The position numbers and the translations under genes were made by a program. The notes under the pieces were generated by a model. That model worked only from the letters and a program-made list of their open reading frames with translations, did not search any database and had not been told where the DNA came from. From Eubacterium sp. (GTDB lineage Bacteria > Bacillota > Clostridia > Oscillospirales > Acutalibacteraceae): a DNA stretch of 64,000 bases. The stretch spans positions 62,001 through 126,000 of the forward strand of contig JAFSTE010000012.1 of NCBI GenBank assembly GCA_017450645.1. Reading direction: 5' to 3'. This document shows positions 14,668 through 62,776 of this stretch, in pieces. Numbering within the stretch: position 1 is the stretch's first letter; every line of letters begins with the position of its first letter.

Positions 14668-14796
14668 TGCCTCCCTTGTTAAAGGGAGGTGGCTGCCGCA
14701 AGGCAGACGGAGGGATTGTCGCTTATTTAACATAAATTATAAACAACGCGACCACCCCTCAGTCACTTCGTGACAGCTCCCCTTAGCAGGGGAGCC
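14668..14796. mobile_element. MITE-like inverted-repeat element, copy 1
   Basis: The left end TGCCTCCCTTGTTAAAGGGA and the complement of the right end (reading TGGCTCCCCTGCTAAGGGGA) are near-identical, and the whole element folds as two arms of about 40 bases with internal hairpins (CTGCC/GGCAG and GTCAC/GTGAC). A second copy lies at 55751-55907. Both copies are followed on the same side by the sequence GTTACTCGC..GCTCAAACAA. There is no coding capacity, so it would have to be moved in trans. It sits between recO and mutS2. Confidence 0.7.
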
Positions 14797-14824
14797 AAAT
14801 CAGTTACTCGCTTTGCTCAAACAA

Positions 14825-15562
14825 TTATTTTATTAGTGACTTATAGAATTCAAGTGTTGTAAGTTTTGAGTCGATGTGCGAATACATATACTTTTCGCAA
14901 AGGTCCGACAGTGTAGCGAGGTTTTCGTCGCTCAGGTTAAACGAAAAGACCTTTTTTAAATCCGCAAGGCATATGTATCTAATAGCAGTAATCACGCTCA
15001 TAGGCACTGCCGCAGCGCTCTCGTTTTTGCAGCTATCACAATAAATGCAGCCCTCGTCGATGTCAAAGACCATCCGCTCGTCCTCGTACGCGCCGCAGTC
15101 GGCGCAGGCAAGTACATCGGGCATAAAACCGCCGAGGCAGAGCATACGCATTTCGCAGGCGGCTTTAATAATTTTACAGTCCTTTTCGCCCTTACAGAGA
15201 AGGTGCAGCGCGTTTAAAAGAAGCCTCAGCGTATCGGGTGCGGGCTGTTCCTCCGCCGAAAGAAAATACGCAAGCTGCGCGAAATACTGTGCAAGCGAAA
15301 GGCGCTCGATATCGCTCCTTAGTTCAAAAAAAATCTCAATAGGCTCGGCGCTGTCGATAACATACGCGTCGCGCCCGCGATACAGCGAAAATTCGCCGTA
15401 AACAAAAAGCGAGGTAGCGGAAAGGTTTTGGCTTTTAATGCTCTTAGCGCGGCGCACAAAGGCTCTTACAAGTCCGTAATCACCTGTAAGGAGAGTGACT
15501 AATGTGTCACTCTCCCCGATAGTCTGTTGCCGAATTATCAAGCCTTTGGTCGTTAGCTTCAT
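14825..15562 (-). CDS. recO: DNA repair protein RecO
   Basis: 245 aa from ATG 15562, the family-typical MKLTTKGLIIRQQ start; the longer frame to 15661 only reads into the overlapping yqzL gene. There is an N-terminal OB fold (about 1-80), an alpha-helical middle, and a C4 zinc site made of CADCG and CIYCDSC. RecO loads RecA with RecR and anneals single strands. The start lies inside yqzL (56-nt overlap in another frame). The stop codon abuts the GCTCAAACAA tail that follows the MITE-like element. Confidence 0.94.
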   Translation of the reverse strand: MKLTTKGLIIRQQTIGESDTLVTLLTGDYGLVRAFVRRAKSIKSQNLSATSLFVYGEFSLYRGRDAYVIDSAEPIEIFFELRSDIERLSLAQYFAQLAYFLSAEEQPAPDTLRLLLNALHLLCKGEKDCKIIKAACEMRMLCLGGFMPDVLACADCGAYEDERMVFDIDEGCIYCDSCKNESAAAVPMSVITAIRYICLADLKKVFSFNLSDENLATLSDLCEKYMYSHIDSKLTTLEFYKSLIK

Positions 15563-15665
15563 TTTCCGTACCCTTAGCTGAAGCGGTCTTAAAATAGTTG
15601 TTGACATACTTGATGTAGTCGTCAACGCTTCCGCTTTGTAAAAATTTATTCCAGTATTCATCCAT
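15507..15665 (-). CDS. yqzL: Small YqzL-like protein
   Basis: 52 aa, ATG at 15665, TGA at 15507-15509. The N-terminal half (MDEYWNKFLQSGSVDDYIKY) matches the pattern of the 47-aa YqzL family: aromatic residues, then F..(T/S)G.V..Y, which is likewise encoded between era and recO in Bacillus. The second half is polar and specific to this lineage. It overlaps the first 56 nt of recO in a different frame. The function of the family is unknown. The identification rests on motif plus conserved gene order. Confidence 0.75.
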   Translation of the reverse strand: MDEYWNKFLQSGSVDDYIKYVNNYFKTASAKGTENEANDQRLDNSATDYRGE

Positions 15666-15717
15666 AAATATCACCAAAAATAGTTTATGCTGTATTTCGG
15701 TGATGATTTATACCAAA

Positions 15718-16605
15718 TTAATCCAAGCCGAAATTATGGATTAATCCCTCGCGGTTGCGCCAGTCCTCCTTAACCTTAACCCAGGTCTGAAGGTTAACCT
15801 TAATGTCAAAAAAGCTCTCTAAATCCTGGCGCGCGTAGGTAGAAATCTTTTTAAGCATAGAGCCTTTTTTGCCGATGACCATACCCTTATGGCTCTCGCG
15901 CTCACAGTAAATCGTAGCGTCTATGTCAAGAATTTCAGCGTCGTCGCGCTCGCGCATTTTTTCGATAGAAACGGCGATACCGTGCGGCACTTCTTTATCC
16001 ATAAGGCGAAGTATTTTTTCGCGTATTATCTCCGCCGCAAGCACGCGCTCGGGCTGGTCGGTAAGAGTGTCGTCCGGGAAAAAGTGGGGCGACTCGAAGG
16101 ACAGCTTTTTCATCTCGTCGAGAAGCTCGCGCACTCCCTCACCGCTTGTAGCGCAAACGGGAACAACGGCTTCAAAGTCGTAAAGCTTTGCAAACTGTGC
16201 AATTCGTGCAAGCAGCCCGCTCTTGTCCTTAAGCATATCAATTTTATTAATCGCAAGGATTACGGGCACGCCGAGCTTTTTAAACTTTTCTATAAGCTCC
16301 GCCTCGCCTTTTTTAATCTCGCCCGATGACTCGGTTACAAAAAGGCACGCGTCAACGCCGCCGATAGAGTCACCGACAGCCTGATACATCTTTTCGCCGA
16401 GCTTGTTATGCGGCTTGTGATAACCCGGTGTGTCGGTAAATACAAGCTGCACCTCGTCCTCGGTAAGAACGCCCATAATTTTAGTTCTTGTAGTCTGCGG
16501 CTTAGAGGATACAATCGCAACCTTTACGCCGAGCATTTTATTTAAAAGTGACGACTTACCCACATTAGGGCAGCCGACAATCGCAATAAAAGCAGTTTTG
16601 CTCAT
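15718..16605 (-). CDS. era: GTPase Era
   Basis: 295 aa, full length. G1 GCPNVGKS at residues 10-17, G2 region QTTRT, G3 DTPGYH, G4 NKID, and a C-terminal KH domain with the VIGKKGSMLKKI loop that binds the 3' end of 16S rRNA. It acts in 30S subunit maturation. Upstream is ybeY, another 16S processing factor. The diacylglycerol kinase and cytidine deaminase genes that often sit between ybeY and era in Firmicutes are absent, and a heptamer-repeat element fills the space. Confidence 0.97.
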   Translation of the reverse strand: MSKTAFIAIVGCPNVGKSSLLNKMLGVKVAIVSSKPQTTRTKIMGVLTEDEVQLVFTDTPGYHKPHNKLGEKMYQAVGDSIGGVDACLFVTESSGEIKKGEAELIEKFKKLGVPVILAINKIDMLKDKSGLLARIAQFAKLYDFEAVVPVCATSGEGVRELLDEMKKLSFESPHFFPDDTLTDQPERVLAAEIIREKILRLMDKEVPHGIAVSIEKMRERDDAEILDIDATIYCERESHKGMVIGKKGSMLKKISTYARQDLESFFDIKVNLQTWVKVKEDWRNREGLIHNFGLD

Positions 16606-16610
16606 TTCAT

Positions 16611-16734
16611 CCGAATTCGGAATTCGGAATTCGGAGTTCGGAATTATCGGTTACTCGCTTTGCTCAAACAATAATCGGGTGTGGGCAGCGCCCACCATTA
16701 ATTCCGCATTCCGCATTCCGCACTCCGCATTATT
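16611..16734. repeat. Heptamer-word element with CGGAATT arms
   Basis: Left arm 16611-16646: five degenerate tandem CGGAATT words. Right arm 16699-16734: ATTCCGC words, the complement. The core 16647-16698 holds GGTTACTCGCTTTGCTCAAA and a GTGGGC/GCCCAC hairpin. The right arm contributes the TAA stop of ybeY at 16730-16732. Confidence 0.7.
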
Positions 16735-17233
16735 CCCCTTCCATATAGTACGAGTTATCGCGTTTTACTCCGATTTTAGTAAGCACGGTTTCCTCTTTTT
16801 CGCGCATACGCACTTCCTCAATTCCGCCCTGCTCGTGGTCGTAACCGAGTAGGTGAAGCATTGAATGAACGGTTAAAAAGCCTATTTCTCTTTGAAGCGA
16901 GTGGTTATACTCCTGCGCCTGCTCAACCGCCTTAGGAACGGAGATTACAATGTCGCCGAGGAGCTTAGCGCCCGAGGTCATATCGGTGTCGTAAACTCCG
17001 TTTTCGCCAAGCGGGAACGACAGCACATCGGTAGGTCTGTCAATATTTCTGTACTCTCTGTTAAGCTCGTGGATTGTTTCGTTATCAACAAATCTTACGC
17101 TTACCTCAGCCTTGTCGTTAAAACCCTCTTCCTCTAATACTGCGTGGCAGCAACGGCGGATAAGCAGCCTTATACCCGAGGGTATAGGTACTTCTTTCTG
17201 GTCGTTTGAAATAATTACTTTAACCTTGTTCAC
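16730..17233 (-). CDS. ybeY: rRNA maturation endoribonuclease YbeY
   Basis: 167 aa. The zinc-binding signature is H123-S-M-L-H127-L-L-G-Y-D-H133, in which the usual Gly of HGxLHLxGYDH is Ser. RPTDVLSFPLG and LGDIVIS are also family-typical. It processes the 3' end of 16S rRNA. The start overlaps the phoH stop by 4 nt (ATGA), as in many bacteria. The last codons and stop lie inside the repeat element, so the C-terminal few residues may vary between strains. Confidence 0.95.
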   Translation of the reverse strand: MNKVKVIISNDQKEVPIPSGIRLLIRRCCHAVLEEEGFNDKAEVSVRFVDNETIHELNREYRNIDRPTDVLSFPLGENGVYDTDMTSGAKLLGDIVISVPKAVEQAQEYNHSLQREIGFLTVHSMLHLLGYDHEQGGIEEVRMREKEETVLTKIGVKRDNSYYMEGE

Positions 17234-18195
17234 CTTTTGCTTTTCTCCTCGTCATATTTTTCGTACGCCTTGATTATATCCTGAACTAATCTATGGCGTA
17301 CAACATCCTTTTGAGTAAACTTAATAATCGAAATATCGTTAACATCCTTAAGGATGCGAAGTACTGTTTTAAGTCCCGATTTCTTGCCGTCGGGTAAATC
17401 TATCTGCGTAATGTCGCCCGTAATTACCATCTTTGAGCGCAAACCGAGACGGGTTAAAAACATCTTCATTTGCTCCGAGGTGGTGTTCTGTGCCTCGTCG
17501 AGAATAATAAAACTGTCGTCAAGCGTACGGCCGCGCATATACGCAAGCGGTGCAACCTCGATAGCGCCCTTCTCCTGATAACGCTGAAAATTCTCAGCCC
17601 CGAGCATATCAAACAGCGCGTCGTAAAGCGGTCTTAAATACGGGTCAACCTTGCTCTGCAAATCGCCGGGAAGGAAGCCGAGCTTCTCCCCCGCTTCAAC
17701 CGCGGGACGCGTAAGGATAATACGGTTAACCTCTTTTGCGCGAAAAGCGGTAACAGCCATCGCAACGGCGAGGTAAGTCTTACCCGTACCCGCAGGACCG
17801 ATACCGAAGGTAATAGTGTTGTTTTCGATAGCCTCGGTGTACTTACGCTGACCGAGGGTTTTAGGCTTAATCGGTCTGCCCTTTGAGCTGATACAGATTG
17901 AATCCGTAGTCATATTATCGAGCTTGTCCTCGTTGCCCTCGCTTACAAGGGACAGAACATAGCGAATGTTCTGGTCGGTGAGCGCCTCGCCCTTATTAAT
18001 CATAACAAGCAGCGAATGGATAGCTCTTACGGCGCAGTTAACATTTTCCTCGTCACCGAGGATTTTAAGCTGCTCGCCGCGCGTGATAATCGAAACGGAA
18101 TACTCCCTTTCGAGCATTTTTATATTTTCGTCAAATGAGCCGAACAGGGTTATCGCCTGCTCGGTGTTTTCAAGTGTTAACTGTTTCTCGTACAT
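17230..18195 (-). CDS. phoH: PhoH-like ATPase
   Basis: 321 aa. It has an N-terminal KH-like extension (about 1-75) and then the P-loop domain with GPAGTGKT at residues 133-140, Walker B FIILDEAQN, and the conserved SKMVITGD and QIDLP segments. It is an RNA-helicase-like ATPase that works with YbeY. It lies between corC and ybeY, with the ATGA overlap to ybeY; the corC-phoH gap is only 3 nt, so this is one operon. Confidence 0.96.
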   Translation of the reverse strand: MYEKQLTLENTEQAITLFGSFDENIKMLEREYSVSIITRGEQLKILGDEENVNCAVRAIHSLLVMINKGEALTDQNIRYVLSLVSEGNEDKLDNMTTDSICISSKGRPIKPKTLGQRKYTEAIENNTITFGIGPAGTGKTYLAVAMAVTAFRAKEVNRIILTRPAVEAGEKLGFLPGDLQSKVDPYLRPLYDALFDMLGAENFQRYQEKGAIEVAPLAYMRGRTLDDSFIILDEAQNTTSEQMKMFLTRLGLRSKMVITGDITQIDLPDGKKSGLKTVLRILKDVNDISIIKFTQKDVVRHRLVQDIIKAYEKYDEEKSKR

Positions 18196-18198
18196 ATA

Positions 18199-18996
18199 TC
18201 AGTTGATTTTTACCTTTAATTTTTCTATTCTTCTGTCCGTTACCTCGAGCACCGTAATTTTAATGTTCTCGTACTCTACAACGGGTTTTTCGCTGGCGTC
18301 CGGCAGGTAGCCGAGCCTGCTGATTACAAAGCCTGCAAGTGTGTCGTAATCGTCCTCGGGGAACTTGACTCCGAGCACCTCCTCAGCGTCCTCAATATCT
18401 GTAACACCCTCAAAAATATAGGTCGAGTCGTCAAGCTTTTTGATGCTCTCCTCCTCGTCGTCGTACTCGTCCTCAATCTCGCCGACAAGCTCCTCAATAA
18501 TATCCTCAAGAGTAACAAGCCCCGCAGTGCCGCCGTATTCGTCAACGACGATTGCAAGCTGTATTCTCGTTTCGGTCATCTTGGCAAAAAGCTTACCGAG
18601 CGTGATGGATTCGGGAACATAAAGCGGCTCGCGGATATAATCCGCCAGCACCTCGTCGTCGGAGATTTTTGTGCCGACGAATTTAAGCAGATCCTTGACA
18701 TATATTATGCCCAGAATGTTATCCAAATCCTCGCTGTAAACGGGGATACGCGAGCATCCCTCGTCAATCGACGCCTTTGCAACATCATAGAGCGTCGCGC
18801 CGTCGCTTACCGCTACGATATCCGTCCTGTGAGTCATAATATCCGAGGCTACCAAATCGTCGAACTCAAAAATCTTATTAATCATTTCGCGTTGTGATTT
18901 TTTAAGCTCGCCCTCGTCCTCGTCAACAAGCTGCTTAATTTCTTCTTCAGTTGAACTTTCTCGTTTAAAAAATCTTTTTAAACCGCTACTGCCCAT
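18199..18996 (-). CDS. CorC/HlyC-type CBS-domain protein
   Basis: 265 aa. A charged N-terminal lead (1-50), two CBS domains (about 55-175, including DIMTHRTDIVAV and VVDEYGGTAGLVT) and a CorC_HlyC domain (about 185-265, AGFVISRLGYLPD). It lacks the DUF21 membrane part, as in YbeX/CorC. Proteins of this type influence Mg2+/Co2+ efflux and, as YbeX, ribosome metabolism. It lies directly ahead of phoH-ybeY, the same order as ybeZ-ybeY-ybeX in Escherichia although rearranged. Confidence 0.92.
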   Translation of the reverse strand: MGSSGLKRFFKRESSTEEEIKQLVDEDEGELKKSQREMINKIFEFDDLVASDIMTHRTDIVAVSDGATLYDVAKASIDEGCSRIPVYSEDLDNILGIIYVKDLLKFVGTKISDDEVLADYIREPLYVPESITLGKLFAKMTETRIQLAIVVDEYGGTAGLVTLEDIIEELVGEIEDEYDDEEESIKKLDDSTYIFEGVTDIEDAEEVLGVKFPEDDYDTLAGFVISRLGYLPDASEKPVVEYENIKITVLEVTDRRIEKLKVKIN

Positions 18997-19082
18997 AAAG
19001 GCATATCCCTCCCTGAAAAATGTTAGTTTTTAGTGGTTAAAGCCGGGCGTTGTCCGCCCTCAGTTCTAAGCTGATTTGAACC

Positions 19083-20390: not shown

Positions 20391-20392
20391 GT

Positions 20393-20826: not shown

Positions 20827-20884
20827 TATTGTCTGAGGCGTAGCCGAGTAACCTCAAGCTCATAGCTTAAAGCTCAAAGCTATG
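20827..20884. repeat. Heptamer-word element, AGCTNNN type with GGTTACTCG core
   Basis: The core at 20827-20856 is the complement of GAGGTTACTCGGC..CAGACAATAA, whose hairpin is GGC-N3-GCC here and GGCGC-N2-GCGCC at 58443-58461. AGCT-based heptamers follow at 20857-20884. A GCCGCTTAAGCGGC palindrome stands next to it at 20884-20897. Confidence 0.55.
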
Positions 20885-21480: not shown

Positions 21481-21537
21481 AGCTTAGAGCTGTGAGCTCA
21501 GAGCTCAGAGCTTAAAGCTATTAGCTCATAGCTAAAG
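21481..21537. repeat. Tandem AGCTNNN heptamers
   Basis: Eight consecutive 7-base units all begin AGCT (AGCTTAG, AGCTGTG, AGCTCAG, AGCTCAG and so on) between aroQ and efp. Because AGCT is self-complementary, the array is weakly palindromic throughout. Confidence 0.75.
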
Positions 21538-22138: not shown

Positions 22139-23356
22139 ATGAAACGCTCAAAAGAAGAAATAATCCGTTATGTAAAGGAAGAAAAAATCAAGTCAATCAG
22201 GCTTGCGTTTTGCGACATCTACGGCAGAGAAAAGAATATCGCAATAGCTCCCGAAGAGCTTGCGGACGCGTTCACCTACGGCATACCGATTAACGCGTCG
22301 GCAATTAAGGATTTCGGCGAGGGTATTTACTGCGATTTGCTGCTTCACCCGGAGCCCGAAACGCTTGCAACGGTGCCAAACAAGCCCGACAACTTTAAGA
22401 CGGTAATTATGTTTTGCCGAATGACTTATCCGGACGGCAGACCGTTTGAAAGCAGGGGCACAAAGAGCGTGCTTATGAAGGCTATTGACTGCGCCGAGGT
22501 AGAGGGATTTGAGTTTTTCTTCTCAAGCGAGATGCAGTTTTATCTTATGAAGCTTGACGAAAACGGAAAGCGCACAAACGAGCCGCTCGACGAAGCGAGC
22601 TTCCTTGATGTTGAGCCCGACGACAAGAGCGAGGCTATCAGGCGCGAAATTCACCTCGCCCTCGAGGGTATGGAAATCGTGCCGAGCAATATGTTCCACC
22701 AGCTCGGCCCCGGTCAGAACCAGATTGACTTTGCGTTTTCTAACCCGCTTCAGGCGTGCAATATAATCACAAAGGCGAAAACCGTTATTAAAAATGTTGC
22801 GAGCTTAAACGGTCTTTATGCCGACTTTTCGCCAAAGCCGTTTGACGACCAGAACGGTAACGGTATGCACATCATTATGTCTGTAAGGGCTAACGACGGC
22901 ACCGACAACCGTATGAGCTCGGCGGTTGCGGGCGTGCTTGACAAAATCGACGAAATGACGGCGTTTTTAAACCCGACCGAAGAATCCTACAAGCGCCTCG
23001 GCAGCGTAAGAGCGCCTAAATATATTTCGTGGTCAAGCGAAAACCGCGCTCAGCTTTTGCGCGTTCCCGAAGCGGTAGGTCACTACCATATTGCCGAGCT
23101 GCGTTCCGCGGACGCAACAGTAAACCCGTACCTTGCATTTGCGCTTATGATTTTTGCGGGACTTTACGGTATTAAAAACAATATGGAACTGCCCGAGGCT
23201 TCAAACTTCGACTTTATAGACGTATCGCCCGAAATTGCGGCTAAATATAAAAAGCTCCCTCAGTCTATCGAGGAAGCGCGCGAGCTAGCAAGAAACAGCG
23301 AGTTTATTAAAGAGCATTTGCCCAAGGACCTTATTGAGCTTTATCTGAATAGATAG
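22139..23356 (+). CDS. Glutamine synthetase family protein with altered active site
   Basis: 405 aa from ATG 22139 (AAGGCGGTG site); typical GSI enzymes are about 440 aa. The fold is clear: NGNGMH (His244), YKRL, NRAQLLR and AELRSAD with Glu320 and Arg322. But the three Glu ligands of the n1 metal are all Gln: Glu131-Met-Gln133 for ExE, His187-Gln188 for HE, and Gln193-Asn-Gln195 for QxE. The ammonia-site Asp (FDGSS in GS) is Asn52 in INASA, and the flap Glu (GYEAP) is Arg291 in VRAP. The n2 ligands (Glu131, His244, Glu320) remain. It is therefore unlikely to make glutamine in the normal way; it may ligate another amine or acid, or be non-catalytic. Confidence 0.9.
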   Translation: MKRSKEEIIRYVKEEKIKSIRLAFCDIYGREKNIAIAPEELADAFTYGIPINASAIKDFGEGIYCDLLLHPEPETLATVPNKPDNFKTVIMFCRMTYPDGRPFESRGTKSVLMKAIDCAEVEGFEFFFSSEMQFYLMKLDENGKRTNEPLDEASFLDVEPDDKSEAIRREIHLALEGMEIVPSNMFHQLGPGQNQIDFAFSNPLQACNIITKAKTVIKNVASLNGLYADFSPKPFDDQNGNGMHIIMSVRANDGTDNRMSSAVAGVLDKIDEMTAFLNPTEESYKRLGSVRAPKYISWSSENRAQLLRVPEAVGHYHIAELRSADATVNPYLAFALMIFAGLYGIKNNMELPEASNFDFIDVSPEIAAKYKKLPQSIEEARELARNSEFIKEHLPKDLIELYLNR

Positions 23357-23420
23357 ACTCAAGGATTGCCCTGCGGGCAAAAGACTCAAGACTCAAGGAG
23401 CGGGTGGTCACGCCCACCCG
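23355..23420. repeat. Heptamer-word element, ACTCAAG type
   Basis: ACTCAAG words at 23357-23363 and 23382-23396 surround a GCCCTGCGGGC hairpin. A CGGGTGG/CCACCCG hairpin follows at 23401-23420. Confidence 0.5.
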
Positions 23421-29888: not shown

Positions 29889-30578
29889 ATGAAAATGTTA
29901 TCTGCTTTACTGTCTATTCTAAGTGCAAATATACTATACTTTATTTTGCACCTGCAGACCTCCTCGTCGTTCCCGAAGCCGCTTACTTCAAAAGAGGAGC
30001 AAATGTATCTCGAAAAAATGGCTCAGGGCGACAAAAACGCGCGCGGCGTGCTTATAGAGCGCAATCTGCGCCTCGTAAGTCATATCGCAAAAAAGTATTA
30101 TGCCAAAAGCGACGACGCCGACGACCTTATTTCAATAGGTACAATAGGGCTTATAAAAGCGGTTGACTCGTTTAACGCCGACAAAAATGTGCGCCTTGCG
30201 ACCTACGCGTCAAGATGCATCGAAAACGAGATACTTATGTATTTTCGCTCGACTAAAAAGCAAAACGGCGATATGCTGTTGTCCGACACTATCGAAACCG
30301 ACAAGGACGGCAATCCGCTGACTATCGAGGACACCCTGCGCGACAAAAGGGATATGGCTCAGGAGCTCGAAAAAAAGACCCGCTGGGCGCAGGTCAAGAA
30401 GTATATAGAGAATATGGACGATGAGCGCGAGCGCGAAATAATAATCCTGCGCTACGGGCTGAATAACAAGCCGCCGCTGACTCAGCGCGAGGTCGCTCAA
30501 AGGCTTAACATAAGCCGCTCCTATGTGTCACGGATAGAGAAAAAGGTGATTTCGGATATACGAATGGCGATAAACTGA
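29889..30578 (+). CDS. sigK: Sporulation sigma factor SigK (late mother cell)
   Basis: 229 aa counted from ATG 29889; ATG 29895 is also possible because GGTGA lies 7 nt ahead of it. The hydrophobic N-terminus (about 1-25) followed by SSFPKPLT matches the pro-sequence and processing region of pro-sigma-K. Region 2 (NLRLVSHIAKKYY, DLISIGTIGLIKAVDSF, YASRCIENEILM) and region 4 (REVAQRLNISRSYVSRIEKK) are intact. The gene is continuous: no skin-type element interrupts it. Its presence indicates the ability to sporulate. The downstream region carries a heptamer repeat and a terminator. Confidence 0.95.
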   Translation: MKMLSALLSILSANILYFILHLQTSSSFPKPLTSKEEQMYLEKMAQGDKNARGVLIERNLRLVSHIAKKYYAKSDDADDLISIGTIGLIKAVDSFNADKNVRLATYASRCIENEILMYFRSTKKQNGDMLLSDTIETDKDGNPLTIEDTLRDKRDMAQELEKKTRWAQVKKYIENMDDEREREIIILRYGLNNKPPLTQREVAQRLNISRSYVSRIEKKVISDIRMAIN

Positions 30579-30645
30579 ATTGAGAATTGAAAATGGAAAA
30601 TTGAGAATTGAGAATTTCGGTTACTCGCTACGCTCAAACAATAAC
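30577..30645. repeat. Heptamer-word element, AATTGAG type
   Basis: Six tandem words (AATTGAG, AATTGAA, AATGGAA, AATTGAG twice) from 30577 to 30617 are followed by the GGTTACTCGCTACGCTCAAA module and the sigK terminator. There is no matching right arm here. The first word contains the sigK stop (TGA). Confidence 0.7.
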
Positions 30646-33150: not shown

Positions 33151-33332
33151 AGCTTATAGCTATGAGCTGCAAGCTGCAAGCTTATGGGTGGACTCCGTCC
33201 ACACCTGATTATAATCGGGTGCGGGAGATTCCCCTATTAGGGGAAATGTCACCGTAGGTGACAAAAGGGTCTGGCGCCCGCTCCAAGGGTCCCGCCCGAA
33301 AGCTCTAAGCTCAAAGCTCTGAGCTCTAAGCC
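33151..33332. repeat. Composite heptamer-word element, AGCT arms with three core modules
   Basis: Left arm 33151-33184 (AGCTTAT, AGCTATG, AGCTGCA, AGCTGCA, AGCTTAT), right arm 33300-33331 (AAGCTCT, AAGCTCA, AAGCTCT, GAGCTCT). The core contains GGTGGACTCCGTCCACACC, GATTATAATCGGGTG, the hairpin TTCCCCTATTAGGGGAA, the hairpin GTCACC-N3-GGTGAC and AAAAGGGTCTGGCGCCCGCT. The same modules recur at 62625-62734 in a different order. Confidence 0.75.
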
Positions 33333-36960: not shown

Positions 36961-38030
36961 TGGCAAGACGCTCAAAACGTACTAGAACCCATAACTCCCA
37001 GAGAGCGCTTATTCAAAACCTCAACATGAACCCTTCTACGAAGTTCAAGGTTGAGGAAGCTTACAAGAGCATAAGAGCTAACATTATGTTCTCTGTTATG
37101 AAAAAGGGCTGCAAGACCATCGTTGTAACCTCCTCCATCGCGGGCGAGGGTAAAACCACAACGACTATTAACCTTGCGATTACCTTTGCGCAGGCAGGTC
37201 AGAAGGTACTGCTTATCGACTCCGACCTTCGTAAGCCTAAGATTCACCACTATTTCAGTATTCCTAACGCACCGGGACTTACTAACTATCTCGGTTCAAG
37301 CGTTTTCGATTCAAACAATGACAAGGTAGATTTGTTTGAGGTTATTCACCCGACAGAGTTTGAAAACCTTTCGGTTATCTGCTCGGGTACTATCCCGCCA
37401 AACCCTGCAGAGCTTCTCGGCTCTGAGGCTATGGAAAACTTTATTAAAGAAATCGGTGCAGACTTCGACTATATCATCGTCGATACTCCGCCCGTTAACA
37501 TCGTATCGGACGCGCTTCCGCTTATTAAGATGTCCGACGGTGTTGTACTCGTAGTAAGATATAATCAGTCTACACACCCCGAAATCGAGCGTACTATCTC
37601 TGCGCTTGAGTTTATCGACGCTAAGATTATCGGCTTTATCATTAACTTTGTTGAGCCTACCTCAACGGGTAAATATAAGTACTCCGGATACAGAAGGTAC
37701 GGCTACGGCAGATACGGTTACGGCAGATACGGCTACGGCGGTTACGGTGGCTACGGCGGTTACGGTGGCTACGGCGGCTATGGCGGATACGGCGGCTATG
37801 GCGGATACGGCGGCTACGGCGGTTACGGTGGCTACGGTGGTTACGGTGGCTATGGCGGTTACGGCGGTTATGGCAACTACGGCATTTACGGCGGCGGAAC
37901 TAACCTGTCTACCAGCAACTACGGTTACAGTACTTACGGCAACCCTACTCCACCGAGCAACCTTAGTAACGAAACTCTGTTAAACGACGACAGATATGAC
38001 CCTAATAAAAAGAGCAAAAAATCAAAATAA
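36960..38030 (+). CDS. Bacterial tyrosine kinase CpsD/CapB family with Gly-Gly-Tyr tail
   Basis: 356 aa. BY-kinase core: Walker A SIAGEGKTTT, Walker A' LLIDSDLRKP, Walker B YIIVDTPP. The C-terminal tail, where such kinases carry a cluster of a few tyrosines for autophosphorylation, is expanded: after KYKYSGYRRYGYGRYGYG come 15 consecutive GGY triplets (DNA 37737-37871), then further tyrosines, about 30 in all, and a basic end. This is far above the usual number. The 9-bp DNA repeat can change length by slippage, which would tune the tail. Confidence 0.93.
   Translation: MARRSKRTRTHNSQRALIQNLNMNPSTKFKVEEAYKSIRANIMFSVMKKGCKTIVVTSSIAGEGKTTTTINLAITFAQAGQKVLLIDSDLRKPKIHHYFSIPNAPGLTNYLGSSVFDSNNDKVDLFEVIHPTEFENLSVICSGTIPPNPAELLGSEAMENFIKEIGADFDYIIVDTPPVNIVSDALPLIKMSDGVVLVVRYNQSTHPEIERTISALEFIDAKIIGFIINFVEPTSTGKYKYSGYRRYGYGRYGYGRYGYGGYGGYGGYGGYGGYGGYGGYGGYGGYGGYGGYGGYGGYGGYGGYGNYGIYGGGTNLSTSNYGYSTYGNPTPPSNLSNETLLNDDRYDPNKKSKKSK
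37737..37871 (+). repeat. Coding 9-bp minisatellite (15 GGY codon triplets)
   Basis: Fifteen back-to-back GGN-GGN-TAY units, with synonymous third-base variation (GGC/GGT/GGA, TAC/TAT), inside the tyrosine kinase gene. Confidence 0.95.
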
Positions 38031-38788: not shown

Positions 38789-38882
38789 AGCTACAAGCTT
38801 TCGGGAGGGCTCTGCCCGCTCCCGATTTTTTGTTTGAACGCAGCTATTAACCTAACGCACGCAGCCTGTAGCCTGAAGCTTG
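38789..38882. repeat. Diverged heptamer-word element
   Basis: AGCTACAAGCTT at the left, a GGGAG..CTCCC hairpin, the complement of a diverged GGTTAATAGCTGCGTTCAAA module (38829-38853), and GCCTGTA/GCCTGAA words at the right. Confidence 0.45.
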
Positions 38883-46070: not shown

Positions 46071-46190
46071 GGAATTGAAAATTGAAAATTGAGAATTGAG
46101 AATTTATGGTGGACTCCGTCCACACCTGATTATAATAGCCGTGCGCAGCACCCGAAATTCTCCATTTTCCATTCTCCATTCTTAATTAAG
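46071..46190. repeat. Heptamer-word element ahead of sigG, AATTGAA arms
   Basis: Left arm 46071-46105 (GAATTGA/AAATTGA words), core GGTGGACTCCGTCCACACC and GATTATAATAG (46107-46139), right arm 46154-46190 (TTCTCCA, TTTTCCA, TTCTCCA words), complementary to the left. It ends 35 nt before the sigG start codon, so it occupies the place of the sigG promoter. Confidence 0.75.
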
Positions 46191-47696: not shown

Positions 47697-47742
47697 AACC
47701 GAGAACCGAGAATAGAGCTTACGCCCTATTCCCTATTCTCCG
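47697..47742. repeat. Short heptamer-word element, ACCGAGA type
   Basis: ACCGAGA, ACCGAGA at the left; CCCTATT, CCCTATT, CTCCG at the right, complementary in part to GAATAG. It lies between upp and uraA. Confidence 0.55.
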
Positions 47743-55750: not shown

Positions 55751-55907
55751 TGCCTCCCTTGTCAAAGGGAGGGGGACCGCTTGCGGTGGAGGGATGGTCG
55801 CTCGATTAACAGCAATCTAAAATCAAGCAATCATATTTTTCACTCCCCCAAATAGACTGTAACCACCCCTCAGTCACTTCGTGACAGCTCCCCTTAGCAG
55901 GGGAGCC
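55751..55907. mobile_element. MITE-like inverted-repeat element, copy 2
   Basis: The ends and the 45-base right part (ACCCCTCAGTCACTTCGTGA..) are identical or nearly so to the copy at 14668-14796. The left hairpin differs: ACCGC-N2-GCGGT in place of CTGCC-N4-GGCAG. The middle is longer and unrelated. It is inserted between the DUF2975 and YozG-like genes. Confidence 0.72.
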
Positions 55908-55930
55908 TTGCGTGGTTACTCGCCTACGGC

Positions 55931-56404
55931 TCAAACAACAAGGTCATTATCCTCTTTAATCTCTATCGCTTTATTTATTACATCGCGTACGACACGCACA
56001 ACAAGCGCCATAAACGCTTCGCCGAAGGCGAGCAGGATTACCGTTTCAATAGACTTATACATAACGGCTATAATAGCATATGATACAAGCCCTACCAAAG
56101 CTGCATACAAGCAGCAGTAGGTGATTTTATTAAGCAATTTTACATTACTGTTATCGAACACTATGTCGCGCTTTATATTAATCATTATTTTATCAAGACA
56201 TATCAATGCCGCGTACCCCGCAGGCACTACAGCGTAAAACGGAAAGATTAAATATTTTCCGTGCTGTGCGAGCATTACGAAGTAGAAAGGGCTGCCGTCC
56301 TGAACCCTCATAAACAGCGGAAACAGCACTACCGCCGCCGCAAGCAAAACATAGCAAAGCCGTATAACAAAATGTGTAATGCTAACAGAGTATAGGTTTT
56401 TCAT
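55931..56404 (-). CDS. DUF2975 membrane protein
   Basis: 157 aa with four membrane spans and the family layout (FVIRLCYVLLAAAVVLFPL, then a LNKITYCCLYAALVGLVSYAI helix). Partner of the YozG-like regulator. Promoter TTGACA-N17-TATAAC at 56463-56435 and GGAGGT before the ATG. The TGA stop (55931-55933) is provided by the GCTCAAACAA module next to the MITE-like element, so the C-terminus (EDNDLVV) may be truncated relative to relatives. Confidence 0.85.
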   Translation of the reverse strand: MKNLYSVSITHFVIRLCYVLLAAAVVLFPLFMRVQDGSPFYFVMLAQHGKYLIFPFYAVVPAGYAALICLDKIMINIKRDIVFDNSNVKLLNKITYCCLYAALVGLVSYAIIAVMYKSIETVILLAFGEAFMALVVRVVRDVINKAIEIKEDNDLVV

Positions 56405-58410: not shown

Positions 58411-58418
58411 ATGTTTCT

Positions 58419-58541
58419 CAGTGTTCAGTGTTCAGTTTATTGTCTGAGGCGCTTGCGCCGAGTAACCTCAATTCCGAATTCCGCATTCCGAATTCGGTCT
58501 AATCTAATAACGGGAGGACGCCTGCGCCCATCCCGTTAGAT
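58419..58541. repeat. Composite heptamer-word element, AGTGTTC and AATTCCG words
   Basis: AGTGTTC, AGTGTTC words at 58419-58437, the complement of the GAGGTTACTCGGC module at 58438-58469 with a perfect GGCGC-N2-GCGCC hairpin, AATTCCG words at 58470-58497, then a long hairpin (TAACGGGA..TCCCGTTA) at 58498-58541. Confidence 0.65.
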
Positions 58542-58544
58542 TAA

Positions 58545-61007
58545 TTATTTTGTTTTCTTTGTCGTTCTTTTCTTAGTCGTCTTTTTCTCAGGTGCCTTCG
58601 TATGTCTTTTAACCGGTGCGGTGTGCCAGATATTGTTAGCGTAGTCCATAATCGAACGGTCTGCGCTGAACACACCTGCGCCCGAGATGTTCATAAGCGA
58701 CATCTTAACGAACTTTTCTCTGTCGCTGTAAGCCTTAGAGATTGCGTGCTGTGCCTTTTGATAATCGGCAAAATCAGCGAGCGCCATATACTGGTCAACA
58801 TTGATGAGCGAGGAATAAACCTCGTCAAAGCGCTTGCCGTTAACGCCCTCCATAATGAAGTTAATGGCGTTTTTGAGCACTTCGTTGTTATTGTAGTAGT
58901 TCATCGGGTAGTAGCCGATACGCTTCATTTCCTCAACCTCGGGAGTTTTCATACCGAAGATTACAATATTGTCAGCGCCTACAGCGTCGTAAATCTCTAC
59001 ATTAGCGCCGTCGAGCGTGCCGAGAGTGATTGCGCCGTTAAGCATAAGCTTCATATTACCTGTACCCGAAGCCTCGGTACCTGCGAGCGAAATCTGCTCC
59101 GAAATATCGGCAGCGGGCATAAGCACCTCTGCAACAGATACATTATAATCCTCAACAAATACGACCTTAAGCTTACTGTTTACATCGGGGTCGTTATTGA
59201 TAACCTTAGACAGCGCGTCAATAAGCTCAATAAGCTTTTTAGCCATAAAGTAACCCGGTGCTGCCTTTGATGCAAAGATATAGGTTTTTGGATAGTAATC
59301 GGCATTCGGATTAGCCTTAAGCATCTGATACTCGGATATAATATTAAGTATATTCAGCTGCTGACGCTTGTATTCGTGCATACGCTTAACCTGAACGTCA
59401 AAAATTGAGTTCGGGTCAATATCTACGCCCTGCTTTTTCTTAAGGTACTTAGCAAAGCGAACCTTATTGTTATACTTAATTTCATCGAGCTTTTTAAGAA
59501 CCTTTTTATCGTCTGCAAAATCACGAAGCTTAAGAAGCTCGTCGGACTTGGTGATAAAGTCAGAGCCGATAAGCTCGGTGATATACTCGGTAAGCTCGGG
59601 GTTTGCCTGGCAGAGCCAGCGCCTGAACGCGATACCGTTAGTAACATTAGTGAACTTCTCGGGAGTGAGAGTATAGAAATCGTTAAATACAGTATCCTTA
59701 AGAATTTCGCTGTGAAGCGCGGATACGCCGTTAACGCTGTGCGAGCCTGCAACGCAGAGGTTAGCCATACGAACAGCGCCGCCCGAGATAATAGCCATTC
59801 TCTCTACTCTTTCTGCATCCTGAGTAGCCGACCATACATAAGCTCTGAAGCGGTTATCAATCTCCTTAGTAATCTGATAAATACGGGGAAGAAGTCTTGA
59901 ATAAAGCTCCTCGCTCCAGCACTCAAGCGCTTCCTTCATAACGGTGTGGTTAGTATAAGCAACGGTCCTTGTAACAATCGACCAAGCCTCGTCCCAGCCG
60001 TAGCCGCACTCGTCGAGCATAATTCTCATAAGCTCGGGGATAGCCATTGTCGGGTGGGTATCGTTAACATGGATAGCAACCTTTTCGGGAAGGTTATCGA
60101 GCGTGCCGTATTCTGTGAGGTGGCGCTGGATAATATCCTGAATAGATGCGGATACAAGGAAGTACTGCTGACGGAGTCTTAGCGACTTACCCTCGGGTGA
60201 GTTGTCAGCGGGGTACAAAATCTTAGAAATAGCCTCAGCCATAGCGCTCTGCTCCATAGCCTTAATGTAAGAGCCCTGGTTAAACAGAGTCATATCAAGC
60301 TCGGGCTTTTTGGACGCCCAGAGTCTGAGACGCGATACGCCCTCGCCAAGACCCGATACATACATATCATAAGGAATAGCGGTAACGACATTAGCGTCTA
60401 CATGGTCAACATGGTGATAGTCGCCGTCCCACGCGTCAACGATTTTACCCTCGAACTTAACCTGACAAGCGCGCTCCTCACGCGGTACAAGCCAAACATC
60501 GCCGCCCGGAAGCCAGAAGTCCGGAAGCTCGGTCTGCCAGCCGTCTACAAGCTTTTGCTTAAATATACCCGCTTCATAACGGATAGAGTAACCCATCGAC
60601 TGAAAGCCGTCTGTTGCAAGTCCGTCAAGGTAGCAGGCAGCAAGTCTGCCGAGGCCGCCGTTACCGAGACCTGCGTCGGGCTCTTTTTCGTAAAGTGATT
60701 CGAGCTTAACATCCATAGATGCAAGCGCTTCTCCTACAACATCGGTAAGACCGAGGTTATAAAGGTTGTTCTTAAGCGAACGACCCATAAGGAACTCCAT
60801 GCAGAGATAGTAAATTTTCTTAGAGTCGCTCTTTTTTGCGTCCTCGCGAAACGCCGAGTTCATCTGAGAGAGCTTATCCCTTACAAGCATCGAAACAGCC
60901 TTGTAGAACTGCTCGTCGGTAGCATCCTTAGGTGAAACGCCGAAAAAGTGAGATAATTTATCTGTAATTAATTTTTTTGTTTGTGCTACGGTAAGTGCCG
61001 GTTTCAT
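58545..61007 (-). CDS. glgP: Glycogen/maltodextrin phosphorylase
   Basis: 820 aa. Full GT35 fold with NGGLGRLAAC, HVNDTHPTMAIPE, VKRMHEYKRQQLN and the PLP-lysine motif EASGTGNMKLMLNG. It releases glucose-1-phosphate from alpha-1,4-glucans. The last 25 residues are an unusual basic tail of Lys/Thr repeats (TKAPEKKTTKKRTTKKTK) not needed by the fold. It has its own promoter (61063-61091) and is followed by the GH13 gene on the same strand, with a repeat element between. Confidence 0.97.
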   Translation of the reverse strand: MKPALTVAQTKKLITDKLSHFFGVSPKDATDEQFYKAVSMLVRDKLSQMNSAFREDAKKSDSKKIYYLCMEFLMGRSLKNNLYNLGLTDVVGEALASMDVKLESLYEKEPDAGLGNGGLGRLAACYLDGLATDGFQSMGYSIRYEAGIFKQKLVDGWQTELPDFWLPGGDVWLVPREERACQVKFEGKIVDAWDGDYHHVDHVDANVVTAIPYDMYVSGLGEGVSRLRLWASKKPELDMTLFNQGSYIKAMEQSAMAEAISKILYPADNSPEGKSLRLRQQYFLVSASIQDIIQRHLTEYGTLDNLPEKVAIHVNDTHPTMAIPELMRIMLDECGYGWDEAWSIVTRTVAYTNHTVMKEALECWSEELYSRLLPRIYQITKEIDNRFRAYVWSATQDAERVERMAIISGGAVRMANLCVAGSHSVNGVSALHSEILKDTVFNDFYTLTPEKFTNVTNGIAFRRWLCQANPELTEYITELIGSDFITKSDELLKLRDFADDKKVLKKLDEIKYNNKVRFAKYLKKKQGVDIDPNSIFDVQVKRMHEYKRQQLNILNIISEYQMLKANPNADYYPKTYIFASKAAPGYFMAKKLIELIDALSKVINNDPDVNSKLKVVFVEDYNVSVAEVLMPAADISEQISLAGTEASGTGNMKLMLNGAITLGTLDGANVEIYDAVGADNIVIFGMKTPEVEEMKRIGYYPMNYYNNNEVLKNAINFIMEGVNGKRFDEVYSSLINVDQYMALADFADYQKAQHAISKAYSDREKFVKMSLMNISGAGVFSADRSIMDYANNIWHTAPVKRHTKAPEKKTTKKRTTKKTK

Positions 61008-61062
61008 ACAAATCCTCCAAATTAATTTATATTAAACATAGTGTTTTAACTGTTTTTTGGTT

Positions 61063-61091
61063 ATTATACACTAAAACATCGCTTATTTCAA
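61063..61091 (-). promoter_or_regulatory. Promoter of glgP
   Basis: Minus strand: TTGAAA (61091-61086), 17 nt, TATAAT (61068-61063). The leader is about 50 nt, with GGAGG before the ATG. Confidence 0.7.
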
Positions 61092-61129
61092 GTATAAATA
61101 AATATATTATACTATTATATGAATATCGT

Positions 61130-62569
61130 CTATTCTGCAGTCTTTTTTGACCTCTTTTTAAGGAACTTATCAACAAGAAGCTCAACGAGCTCTTTAAGCG
61201 GTTTATGGTTAAACAGAAGCATTACTACTACGAGCGCGCCCTCGATAACATACATCAAAACGCCGCCCTTCATAAGTATCATAACCGCCGCCTGAACGCC
61301 GAGTATTAGCAGCTCGGTAGCGATAATCGGAGCCTTAAAGTCGATTTTTATAAACCTTCTTGTATCAATGCCGCGGGTTACGAATACCACGATAAACGCT
61401 ACGAGCGTAGCGATAGCCGCACCGTTTGCACCGATTTGCTTAATAAGCACGAGGTTTAGGATAACATTAGCCGCCGCACCCGACAGCGCGGTTATCATCG
61501 CCATAATATTCTTCTTTTCCGCCATATAGACAGACGCGAGGAAGTTTACATGGCACGAAATCGTAGTAGCCATAATAAGCACGGGTACATACTGCCACGA
61601 GGTGTAGTAGCTCGGCGCTACAAGTATTCTCGTGAGTAGCTGACAGCCGAGTATCAGCGCTGCGGACACCGAGAACACGCCGCCCGAATATACTCTGAAT
61701 ACATTAGTAAAGAAATGCGCCCTGTCGTCGCTTTCGTACTCGTCAACGGCGGACAGCTGCCACGCGTCGATAAATATTGACGAGAACATAATTACGAAGT
61801 TAGGTATTTTAGACGCCGCGGTATAAAGTCCGTTTTCAGCCGAACCGATAAAGCCCGTAACCATATACCTGTCGGACACATTAATAATCCACCATAAAAT
61901 AATAGTAGGCATCATCGGGATTGAGTACTTGAGCATACTGAACGCCGTACTTTTACGAACGCCCTTAATCTTAACATAGCGCCAGAGTTTGCAGGTAACG
62001 AAAAGGAATATAATCGAGCAAAAATCGGACGCGATAATAGCGATAATATATCCGTAAACGCCCCAGTGGAACGGACCGAGGAACAGCAGGTTAAACGCAA
62101 GAGTAGTAGCAGTTGCAACAATACCGTCTATTGCAAAAATCTTAACCTCGCCGCAACCCCTTACGAACTGCTGACAAAGCTGTCTTAAGCCCGAAACGAG
62201 TACAAAGACATAGATAAGTACAACATAGTCGCCGAGGCAGAAGTCCTTAATCCTTATAAGGCTAATCGGGTACCAGAACAGCAGGAACACCGCAAAGCCG
62301 ATAAAGGTTGTACGCAGACCGACCGAGAAAACCTCCGCCTTGTCGCCGTCCTTGTCGAGCGCAAAGCGAAGGCAGGCGCTGTTAATCTGTAAAAATACAA
62401 TAGGAATAAGCACATTAGCCGTCTGCTGAATAAGGTCGGCGTCGCCGTAGCTGCCCTGCTCGAGCATACGCGTAACAAAGGGCATAAGCAAAAACGACAA
62501 CACCTTCGACGAAAATGTGCCTATGGCAAAGATTATTGTATTTGTGGCTAATTTCTTGTATTTATCCAT
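61130..62569 (-). CDS. Oligosaccharide flippase, Wzx/MviN-like (MATE-fold)
   Basis: 479 aa, about 14 membrane spans, of the polysaccharide-biosynthesis/MOP family (TNTIIFAIGTFSSKVLSFLLMPFVTRML start). It moves a lipid-linked sugar repeat across the membrane, so an exopolysaccharide or capsule is made. No glycosyltransferase is adjacent, the same situation as for the capsule kinase module and the CapD-like enzyme. A basic tail (FLKKRSKKTAE) ends the protein. Confidence 0.9.
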   Translation of the reverse strand: MDKYKKLATNTIIFAIGTFSSKVLSFLLMPFVTRMLEQGSYGDADLIQQTANVLIPIVFLQINSACLRFALDKDGDKAEVFSVGLRTTFIGFAVFLLFWYPISLIRIKDFCLGDYVVLIYVFVLVSGLRQLCQQFVRGCGEVKIFAIDGIVATATTLAFNLLFLGPFHWGVYGYIIAIIASDFCSIIFLFVTCKLWRYVKIKGVRKSTAFSMLKYSIPMMPTIILWWIINVSDRYMVTGFIGSAENGLYTAASKIPNFVIMFSSIFIDAWQLSAVDEYESDDRAHFFTNVFRVYSGGVFSVSAALILGCQLLTRILVAPSYYTSWQYVPVLIMATTISCHVNFLASVYMAEKKNIMAMITALSGAAANVILNLVLIKQIGANGAAIATLVAFIVVFVTRGIDTRRFIKIDFKAPIIATELLILGVQAAVMILMKGGVLMYVIEGALVVVMLLFNHKPLKELVELLVDKFLKKRSKKTAE

Positions 62570-62587
62570 TTTGACTCCGTCTTTAAA

Positions 62588-62776
62588 AAATTGAGAATTA
62601 AGAGTTGAGAATTGAGAGTTAAGGACGGGCTTCGCCCGTACCCATTATAATCAGGTGTGGACGGAGTCCCCTTGGAGCGGGCGCCAGACCCTTTTGTCCG
62701 CAAGCGGACATTTCCCCTAGCAGGGGAATCTCCCAAAATTCTCCATTTTCCATTTTCAATTTTCAATTTTTAATTC
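62588..62776. repeat. Composite heptamer-word element, AATTGAG arms with permuted core
   Basis: Left arm 62588-62624 (AATTGAG, AATTAAG, AGTTGAG, AATTGAG, AGTTAAG); right arm 62735-62776 (AAAATTC, TCCATTT, TCCATTT, TCAATTT, TCAATTT), complementary. The core contains the ATTATAATCAGGTGTGGACG module, then GGAGCGGGCGCCAGACCC, the hairpin GTCCGC-N2-GCGGAC and TTCCCCTAGCAGGGGAA. The modules are the same as at 33187-33296 but in swapped order. Confidence 0.75.

Follow-up and report, generated by a model that had tools for sequence, protein, structure and literature searches.

Small dispersed repeats (SDR) in Nostoc punctiforme, reportedly described by Elhai and others in 2008, are said to be very small repeats that form hairpins and show compensatory changes; many are set within tandem heptamers, and they are nested in each other and confined to a clade. 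The repeats of the P6b stem-loop in the cyanobacterial tRNA-Leu intron are also heptads. In the part of the literature available on P6b, this stem-loop carries exchangeable repeat classes, one of which repeatedly replaced the other (PMC4476775). Heptanucleotide SSR/STRR include, in the accessible portions of two reports, TAACTGA in Beggiatoaceae (PMC4679880) and the repeats GGGAATC and GGGGATT (PMC4692102). REP elements are described, in the excerpted account, as having a GT[AG]G tetranucleotide 5′ at the hairpin foot (PMC6006769).

The window considered here is a stretch of 64,000 nucleotides from a gut Clostridia genome, with palindromic repeat elements dispersed in its intergenic DNA. As in the Nostoc SDR, as it is reportedly defined, a hairpin repeat of 20–30 bases lies within heptamer tandem repeats; host and sequences are different, the arms here are inverted about a core, and the heptamers, reportedly the context of the repeat in Nostoc, here form an arm joined to the hairpin at a fixed distance, with a phase, an orientation and a typical length. 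The REPIN/REP family likewise comprises short extragenic hairpins with conserved feet, found as singlets and inverted doublets, but the portions consulted describe no heptamer arms (PMC3116915, PMC6006769). Neither strand of the core A consensus contains GT[AG]G; GTGG in many copies of core B lies inside the stem, where others read GCGG or ACGG by eye. P6b resembles the present elements as a stem-loop with exchangeable repeat classes, but it is one site in a group I intron, described in the available text without tip modules, whereas the elements here are dispersed (PMC4476775). Period seven, intergenic position and occurrence in several phyla are shared with SSR/STRR, for which inverted repeats are mentioned in Xanthomonas; in the accessible portions, however, those arrays carry no attached hairpin cores, vary in copy number and use one or few words in a genome, Calothrix having three (PMC4679880, PMC4692102).

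A literature search on heptamer arms with hairpins, conducted mostly outside subscription papers, did not find the same anatomy. A heptad arm with orientation and set length appears to be new. An earlier note knew of no description of interchangeable words around shared cores in Clostridia; heptamers around small hairpins reportedly have a precedent in the Nostoc SDRs.

Period Seven in Intergenic DNA

The earlier note had listed heptamer runs in eleven gaps of the window, always with a period of seven, and this was borne out: in none of these gaps did more than 1 of 1000 shuffles score as well. The best local lag-7 score was matched by none of 1000 dinucleotide shuffles in ten of the gaps and equalled by one in the gap at 38789–38882, and the best competing lag (3–13) in the eleven gaps scored 3–6. 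Across the 38 gaps of the window (5,282 bases), 134 bases lie inside lag-7 runs of at least 8 (shuffled mean 1.7, maximum 20 in 100 shuffles), and other lags from 2 to 24, harmonics 14 and 21 excepted, give 0–8 bases. The excess extends to the genome: in the window plus 40 further stretches (864 kb, 41% of the genome, with 431 intergenic stretches totaling 74 kb), 48 intergenic arrays were found at lag 7 vs. 0–3 at lags 3–6, 8–13 and 15 (threshold 12; harmonic 14 set apart). The range given in that note begins at 14668; the first gap there (14652–14824) has no heptamers, with 127 of 1000 shuffles scoring as well, and contains a different palindromic repeat and an armless core.

The features of the window are as follows.

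16613..16645, plus strand: left arm, 5 boxes, word AATTCGG
16649..16671, minus strand: core A, TTGTTTGAGCAAAGCGAGTAACC on the minus strand
16681..16695, plus strand: core B hairpin GTGGGC-AGC-GCCCAC
16699..16731, plus strand: right arm, 5 boxes, word ATTCCGC (inverted)
20829..20853, plus strand: core A with longer hairpin GGCGTAGCC, half element
20856..20881, plus strand: right arm, 4 boxes, AGCTNNN
21481..21537, plus strand: AGCTNNN array, 8 boxes, without core
23356..23420, plus strand: short ACTCAAG arms and hairpin, degenerate element (by eye)
30577..30616, plus strand: left arm, 6 boxes, AATTGAR, half element
30619..30641, minus strand: core A
33151..33182, plus strand: left arm, 5 AGCT boxes
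33188..33202, plus strand: core B hairpin GTGGAC-TCC-GTCCAC
33222..33290, plus strand: module C, nested palindromes
33300..33331, plus strand: right arm, 5 AGCT boxes
38789..38882, plus strand: decayed element with short AGCT arms, B hairpin and diverged core A (by eye)
46073..46104, plus strand: left arm, 5 boxes, AATTGAR
46109..46123, plus strand: core B hairpin
46141..46151, plus strand: second tip hairpin GTGC-GCA-GCAC
46156..46190, plus strand: right arm, 5 boxes, CTCCATT
47697..47742, plus strand: short element, ACCGAGA / CCCTATT arms around a small palindrome (by eye)
58418..58436, plus strand: left arm, word AGTGTTC
58440..58467, plus strand: core A with 5-bp hairpin GGCGC-TT-GCGCC
58470..58496, plus strand: right arm, other word (AATTCCG), making a mixed element
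62589..62620, plus strand: left arm, 5 boxes, AATTGAG/AGTTGAG
62625..62639, plus strand: core B hairpin ACGGGC-TTC-GCCCGT
62660..62735, minus strand: module C, by eye, on the strand opposite to 33222
62737..62775, plus strand: right arm, about 6 boxes

A modular family with inverted arms is present, as had been proposed. By eye, 20827 and 30577 are half elements, 21481 is a coreless array, and 38789, 47697 and 23355 are decayed or short.

Anatomy of the Unit

Statistics on core A and its arms pool the window's genome, stretches of relatives and named loci, some of them overlapping, with identical sequences counted once. The family is built on a unit in which a short hairpin, TTGTYYGA-GCGNAGC-GAGTAACC, is followed by 2–3 bases and then by a phase-locked heptad arm. 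A lag-7 arm follows core A in 77 of 87 copies, and lags 5, 6, 8 and 9 account for 5, 1, 1 and 1 of the 87. One degenerate heptad in fixed phase, M-A-N-Y-Y-N-N, is common to the arms that adjoin core A, and its position 3 is a pyrimidine in 92–96% of the first four heptads across differing words. The word families, which the earlier note had called unrelated, are therefore mostly variants of one degenerate heptad.

The typical length of the arm is five units, and it is not a freely growing run. Among 103 copies of core A (those with N or less than 60 bases from a locus end being left out), consecutive ANY boxes number five in 36, six in 14, seven in three, four in nine, and three or fewer in 41; if one failed box is tolerated, 39 copies have five boxes and 20 have six. 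When the flanks are shuffled, about 0.5 copies show four boxes in a row and none shows five. Lag-7 identity is 0.50–0.91 (mean 0.72) at positions 4–27 past core A and near background from about position 33. Next to core A the array has a mode of exactly five boxes and its periodicity stops at a fixed point. Longer arrays exist elsewhere, at 21481 (8 boxes) and in genome G069.

Pairing in the hairpin is kept. Of the 136 copies of core A collected by their TTGTYYGA and GAGTAACC feet, 133 have a stem of at least 2, where about 15 are expected with a shuffled insert; since 122 of the 136 inserts have the identical 2-bp stem, covariation in core A rests on few copies, and ten of the stem-keeping copies have longer stems with inserts of 9, 10 or 12 bases. 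Pair 5 of core B is G-C in 28, A-T in 14 and C-G in two of 53 copies. A second GC hairpin lies on the foot side of core A in 27 of 103 copies vs. 6.8% of random 45-mers, making inverted doublets commoner than chance, as in REPIN; a left arm lies on that side in 28 of 103, so most copies of core A are singlets by this test. Folding z-scores run from −2.0 to −8.8 in eight of nine stretches, the half element at 30576 folding no better than shuffles.

Core A has at least 80 carriers, all Clostridia among the matches listed, which agrees with the host class that had been assigned. The exact core A pattern was found in one of 391 class genomes, the window's own, in a draw that held no other member of the genus.

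Words, Matching, and Orientation of the Arms

Words are alike within an arm (identity 0.72), less so between the arms of one element (0.44) and least between elements (0.33). This last value, taken at variable positions, sets the family apart from a MITE, in that terminal arms are inverted yet no single consensus exists, and it sustains the claim that no one MITE consensus would account for all loci. That cores are shared independently of the word also holds: when arms are sorted by tip with a crude rule, the 52 assigned to core A show 22 word types and the 52 assigned to core B show 19.

Arm pairs were collected by box grammar, uncurated by hand and with some false pairs (e.g., L092 496); removal of one containing N from the 109 left 108 for the tests of matching, identity, inverted doublets and position 3. 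Complementary arms around the core, as the earlier note had described, are common but not general: 53 of the 108 pairs match at 0.5 or more of variable positions, and 35 at less than 0.3. Left arms agree better with the right arm of their own element (0.445) than with same-genome partners (mean 0.387 and maximum 0.446 in 1000 shuffles). Position 3 of the heptad is unmatched between arms (0.37 matched vs. 0.43 shuffled in 48 matched elements, with 67 of 5000 shuffles as low). The claim is limited to this because over all 108 pairs 315 of 3000 shuffles are as low, and because the base at position 3 follows tip type (on core A, T in 30 and G in seven of 52; on tip GGGTGC, G in 14 and T in five of 19); active avoidance of pairing there is not claimed.

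The orientation of neighboring arrays was read with a position-weight test learned from core A arms, giving LR 55, RL 1, RR 11, LL 5 and unclear 14, duplicates being kept. As the named loci hold many of the same arms, the 12 clear pairs from the window's own sample (LR 11, RR 1, with 3 unclear) are the more independent part. A first test, based on the R-N-T box grammar, left 664 arrays ambiguous (LR 7, RR 1) and was dropped, since AATT fits both strands.

Presence, Absence, and Genomic Setting

The elements are present or absent as whole units between species, the level at which the comparison was made. The element at 46071 is absent in G006, that at 47697 in four relatives and that at 33151 in eight, and conversely one G006 element is missing from the window's genome. 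In these empty sites, whose flanks are roughly 70–84% identical, target-site duplication is not clearly visible. In sister species the same gap can hold other elements and other words. Divergent gaps are avoided (2 of 77 with an element vs. 47 of 266 other gaps, p = 3e-4), and convergent and tandem gaps are occupied in 16 of 61 and 31 of 205 cases. Some elements begin at a stop codon, by eye. In G136, a genome of another family, an element whose arms are enclosed by outer hairpins occurs at two loci in near-identical copies.

The search for a mobilizing enzyme gave no candidate that was retained. PF01797 (Y1 transposase) had no matches in the window's genome (87% complete), a difference from REP-RAYT systems, nor in G008 (99%) or G010 (62%). 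Y1 genes occur in some relatives without a match to the query element, and across 18 relatives of the genus no association between gene and element was evident. A Y1 gene at locus L108 had seemed to be flanked by heptamer arrays, both of which proved to lie upstream, and those of G002 and G016 are flanked by their own, different inverted repeats; the Y1 lead was dropped for these reasons. RVT_1 (PF00078) and IS110 (PF01548) had no matches in the window's genome, G002, G006–G008 and G010, and they showed no link to the elements in sets of 20 relatives each (12 of the genus), G016 being outside both sets. Rfam gave no matches at the gathering score in the window.

Origin of the Elements

It is about an even bet (probability roughly 0.5) that this is a REPIN/SDR-like family of mobile palindromes, non-autonomous and recognized by structure. 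A unit consists of a tip hairpin with about five heptads as its arm; in a full element two such units meet at their feet across an AT-rich center, and a lone unit makes a half element. Speaking for this reading are the anatomy and phase of the unit, its usual arm length and orientation, the retained hairpin pairing, the closer match of a left arm to its own partner, the interspecies presence or absence of entire elements, their scarcity in divergent gaps, the two copies in G136 and the folding of eight of nine stretches. In single-stranded form, on the lagging strand or in a transcript, the arms could fold into an imperfect, register-slippable stem displaying the two tip hairpins to a putative nuclease or transposase working in trans, which would read structure and conserved feet rather than the word. 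Words would then drift and be homogenized within an arm by slippage or by conversion between units; arm length may be held because stem length belongs to what is recognized, and arms may partly share words because fold-back lets one arm template the other. Weighing against this reading are the lack of an enzyme match, the lack of a clear target-site duplication, the 35 of 108 arm pairs without a word match, the 41 of 103 arms with three or fewer unbroken boxes, the half element that folds no better than shuffles, the unmatched position 3, the 2-bp stem common to 122 of 136 core A inserts and the occurrence of the exact core A pattern in one of 391 class genomes.

Ordinary heptanucleotide microsatellites, grown by slippage that prefers seven bases, with palindromic repeats inserting beside or inside them by chance, seem an unlikely source. 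In the portions available, heptamers are reported to be more common than any other class of long SSR in many prokaryotes, with polymerase slippage suggested as the mechanism (PMC4679880, PMC4692102). AATT-type heptamer arrays without core A are found in further Clostridia families as well: 14 of the 118 class genomes have such arrays, the window's own among them, and the backward-read control TTAANNN is positive in 11 of 118. In the 60 genomes searched at all three periods, period 7 gives arrays in 7, period 8 in 3 and period 6 in 2, the latter as single hits. In G069 a simple array runs to about 20 units, and words are alike within an arm, as slippage would make them. However, slippage alone would not be expected to yield a typical length, a phase relative to the core, a single orientation or the pyrimidine at position 3 of the first four heptads across words. 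It is strained further by the unbroken five- or six-box arm at a fixed distance in 50 of 103 copies of core A, for which a constraint beyond slippage is needed.

Preservation for function on RNA also appears improbable. Transcribed 3′-end elements, such as hairpins for mRNA processing, stability or attenuation that spread by copying, would fit the avoidance of divergent gaps, the occupied convergent and tandem gaps, the starts at stop codons seen by eye and the stable folds; but a neutral mobile element of any kind would likewise avoid promoters, presence at a given gap differs by species, a gap shared by sister species can differ in both element and word, and the window has no Rfam match. Very unlikely is an array bound by a nucleoid or recombination protein with R-N-T / A-N-Y contacts every 7 bases, the hairpins being secondary. 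Such a protein would explain why most arms keep A and Y at set places in the heptad and why about five sites follow one another, but its contacts would be just two bases per heptad, the hairpin is conserved too, and we know of no protein with this pattern.

Implications

The preference of long bacterial simple repeats for period seven is an old puzzle, usually ascribed to polymerase slippage. Heptamers that are attached to a hairpin in fixed phase and with one direction, in arms of typical length, provide a testable alternative, in which they form the stem of a structured element that is mobile. They also offer a natural example of evolution that keeps structure free of sequence, the units of each arm changing in concert. 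More doubtfully, the family may follow a structural code, comprising a tip hairpin and an arm of about five heptads, with two positions per heptad fixed, the rest free and one unmatched between arms, while the word itself would be neutral, homogenized along each arm and in part passed from one side of the hairpin to the other. If common machinery reads such a code, the scattered heptamers of cyanobacteria, Clostridia, Bacteroidetes and others could trace one process rather than slippage.

Period-Seven Arrays

In the genome of the window (2.08 Mb in 32 contigs, 87% complete; the window being C2:62001-126000), runs of 7-base words had been described in eleven gaps, and all eleven held: the lag-7 score was equaled by none of 1000 shuffles in ten gaps and by one of 1000 in the other. 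The lag-7 signal across the window amounted to 134 bases, whereas shuffles averaged 1.7. A scan of 864 kb of this genome bore out the lag-7 excess, with 48 intergenic arrays at period 7 and 0–3 at other periods, the harmonic 14 being left out of the comparison. Coding sequence at window 37698-37895 also holds tandem repeats, of 15 and 9 bases (CGGCTACGG, ~18 copies). The modules associated with the arrays are:

Core A: TTATTGTYYGA-hairpin-GAGTAACC, seen on listing the arrays with their surroundings
Core B: 6-3-6 hairpin with an arm before it and ACCYGATTATAAT after it
Module C: window 33222-33290, also 62660-62735; a nested palindrome of greater length, found within some elements

Core A and Its Arm

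Of 40 GAGTAACC copies in the sample, 24 are intergenic. By eye, a heptamer array begins a few bases past 22 of these 24, the other two being window 55921 and one copy that is not core A. A core A scan of named genomes gave at least 102 stretches; in the 80 listed, lag-7 identity was at least 0.45 over the 38 bases past GAGTAACC in 77 of 87 core A copies, compared with 5, 1, 1, and 1 of 87 at lags 5, 6, 8, and 9. The opposite side gave a weak signal (0.33 at lag 7 vs. 0.24–0.31 at other lags) since many copies are solitary on that side. With copies from the window’s genome and further relatives added (n = 103), lag-7 identity past core A was 0.50–0.91 (mean 0.72) at positions 4–27, 0.35–0.48 at 28–32, and near background from 33. 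Heptad position 1 was A in 73–87% of these copies, and position 3 was a pyrimidine in 92–96% in the first four heptads and 82% in the fifth. Exactly five consecutive boxes (single heptads) were counted in 36 copies, six in 14, seven in 3, four in 9, and three or fewer in 41, the count stopping at one failed box; with one failure tolerated, five were found in 39 and six in 20. Shuffled flanks had four boxes in ~0.5 copies and five never. The lag-7 profile, fixed heptad positions, and box counts of the 103 copies thus show that the arm adjoining core A is locked in phase and has a typical length.

The word families, which the earlier note had considered unrelated, mostly fit one degenerate heptad with these fixed positions; the words include AATTGAG, AATTATG, AATTCGG, AGCTNNN, AGTGGAC, ACTCGGA, and others, each taken on one or the other strand. 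A second palindromic repeat family, of the CTCCCTTGTTAAAGGGAG and TCACTTCGTGACAGCTCCCCT type, adjoins armless core A copies (window 14652-14824 and ~55870-55940).

Hairpin Tips

Inserts between TTGTYYGA and GAGTAACC were gathered without requiring pairing (136 copies); a core A stem of at least 2 was present in 133, compared with ~15 when shuffled. The form GCNNNGC was common to 122 inserts, and ten had longer stems, e.g., GGCAAAGCC, GCCGTAGGC, and GGCGCTTGCGCC. Among 53 core B copies picked by foot alone, pairs 3–5 were 77% paired vs. 40–62% when slid, pair 5 being G-C in 28, A-T in 14, and C-G in 2. Pairs 2, 4, and 6 were paired in only 27, 32, and 28 copies, which we think is due to other tip lengths mixed in. 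Nine stretches were folded as single-stranded DNA: eight were stabler than shuffles (z −2.0 to −8.8), and the ninth, the half element (one hairpin with one arm) at 30576, showed no stability gain (z +0.85).

Arm Pairing and Words

Inverted pairs of five-box arms in 1.72 Mb numbered 109 at period 7 vs. 0, 2, 0, and 3 at periods 5, 6, 8, and 9, in a search blind to orientation because AATT is identical on both strands. When position weights learned from core A arms were run on arrays found without the box grammar, neighboring arms faced each other (LR) in 55 pairs, with RL 1, RR 11, LL 5, and 14 unclear; the window’s own sample alone gave LR 11, RR 1, and 3 unclear. Agreement at the variable heptad positions is 0.72 inside an arm, 0.44 from one arm of an element to the other, and 0.33 when different elements are compared.

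In five or more cases the arms had been described as complementary, and this stood in part. Arm-to-arm agreement (0.445) exceeded nearly all same-genome shuffled partners (mean 0.387, maximum 0.446 of 1000), and a first, smaller set of 23 elements had an alignment score of 12.7, where 2000 shuffles averaged 8.0 and peaked at 11.9; however, the two sides differ in word in 35 of 108 pairs, e.g., at 58419-58541. Across 48 elements matched at heptad positions 4–6, position 3 was unmatched between arms; its base goes with the tip module. As claimed earlier, the cores are shared whatever the word (22 words over 52 arms on core A, 19 over 52 on core B, the crude tip rule leaving 79 of 216 arms unclassed). 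Tip and word, position 3 apart, combine freely.

Spread Among Clostridia

The assignment to a Clostridia host was upheld by at least 80 named loci with core A; those listed are all Clostridia (titled Oscillospiraceae, Ruminococcaceae, Eubacterium, Ruminococcus, Clostridiales, and Clostridia bacterium), many of them from ruminants. The exact core A pattern was found in one of 391 class genomes, the window’s own (26 copies), in a draw that had no other genus member. Blastn with the 46060 element gave several matches in six of 18 genus relatives and one match in a seventh.

Of 118 class genomes, 14 contain four AATT boxes at period 7, and several of these have numerous copies; among 60 genomes common to all three period searches, period 7 was found in 7, period 8 in 3, and period 6 in 2 (single hits). 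In genome G111, eight stretches were picked because they held four boxes or more; the number is mostly four to six, and core A was absent from all eight. In G136, two miniature elements that are nearly identical lie at separate loci (L266, L269), with heptad arms within outer hairpins GTGCC-CGT-GGCAC and outer inverted repeats of ~20 bases, a layout reversed relative to the window’s elements. Outside this genus, heptad arms are thus also found together with small hairpins, in other layouts. G069 (L246 1494-1690) has ~20 AATTAAG units and then AGTATTA units in a long simple array, a plain microsatellite form without a core.

Turnover and Gap Preference

The 46071 element, arms included, is missing from the orthologous gap of the relative G006, where the flanking stretches are 77 and 81% identical. 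The 47697 element is missing in four relatives and the 33151 element in eight, and one G006 element is missing from the window’s genome. Two gaps are occupied in both genomes with differing cores or words (window 20827 vs. G007; the half element L040 vs. G007). Such double occupancy suggests that tolerated gaps receive insertions repeatedly, or that one element has replaced another. Module C matches many sister-species copies (79–98% over ~46–95 bases, several at 94–98%) and is thus either under selection or recently mobile. Tandem repetition of heptad-armed elements, or of half elements, is seen at L230 1700-2050 and L208 6578-6840.

Mechanism

The closest known system is the SDR elements of Nostoc, reportedly often embedded in heptamers. 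The repeat classes in the P6b stem of the tRNA-Leu intron are also said to be heptads. Excerpts of published work describe two repeat classes in this stem, one replacing the other (PMC4476775), as well as REPINs, inverted hairpin doublets with RAYTs (PMC3116915, PMC6006769).

No Y1 transposase gene was found in the window’s genome (87% complete) or in G008, and in relatives such genes occur without a match to the query element. RVT_1 and IS110 do not track with the elements across the searched genomes, and no candidate enzyme for element movement is supported. Y1 transposase-like genes of ~240–250 aa are present in G002 (L131-L134) and G016 (L130); inverted repeats that do not resemble cores A and B (GGGGTCAGACCCC or GGGACAGGGGACGGTTCC, for example) lie near most of them.

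A heptamer excess in prokaryotes and its explanation by slippage have already been published, according to excerpts (PMC4692102, PMC4679880), but slippage alone does not explain the heptad arms, as it accounts neither for their phase and typical length nor for their orientation and fixed positions. A role in transcripts fits in part: it agrees with gap preference, a heptad array or GAGTAACC being present in 2 of 77 gaps between divergent genes, 16 of 61 between convergent genes, and 31 of 205 between tandem genes (gaps of at least 40 bases, both neighbors predicted, open frames of at least 90 codons), but is at odds with turnover from species to species. The best reading is that the elements would be small mobile hairpins, moved in trans by a factor that sees structure.
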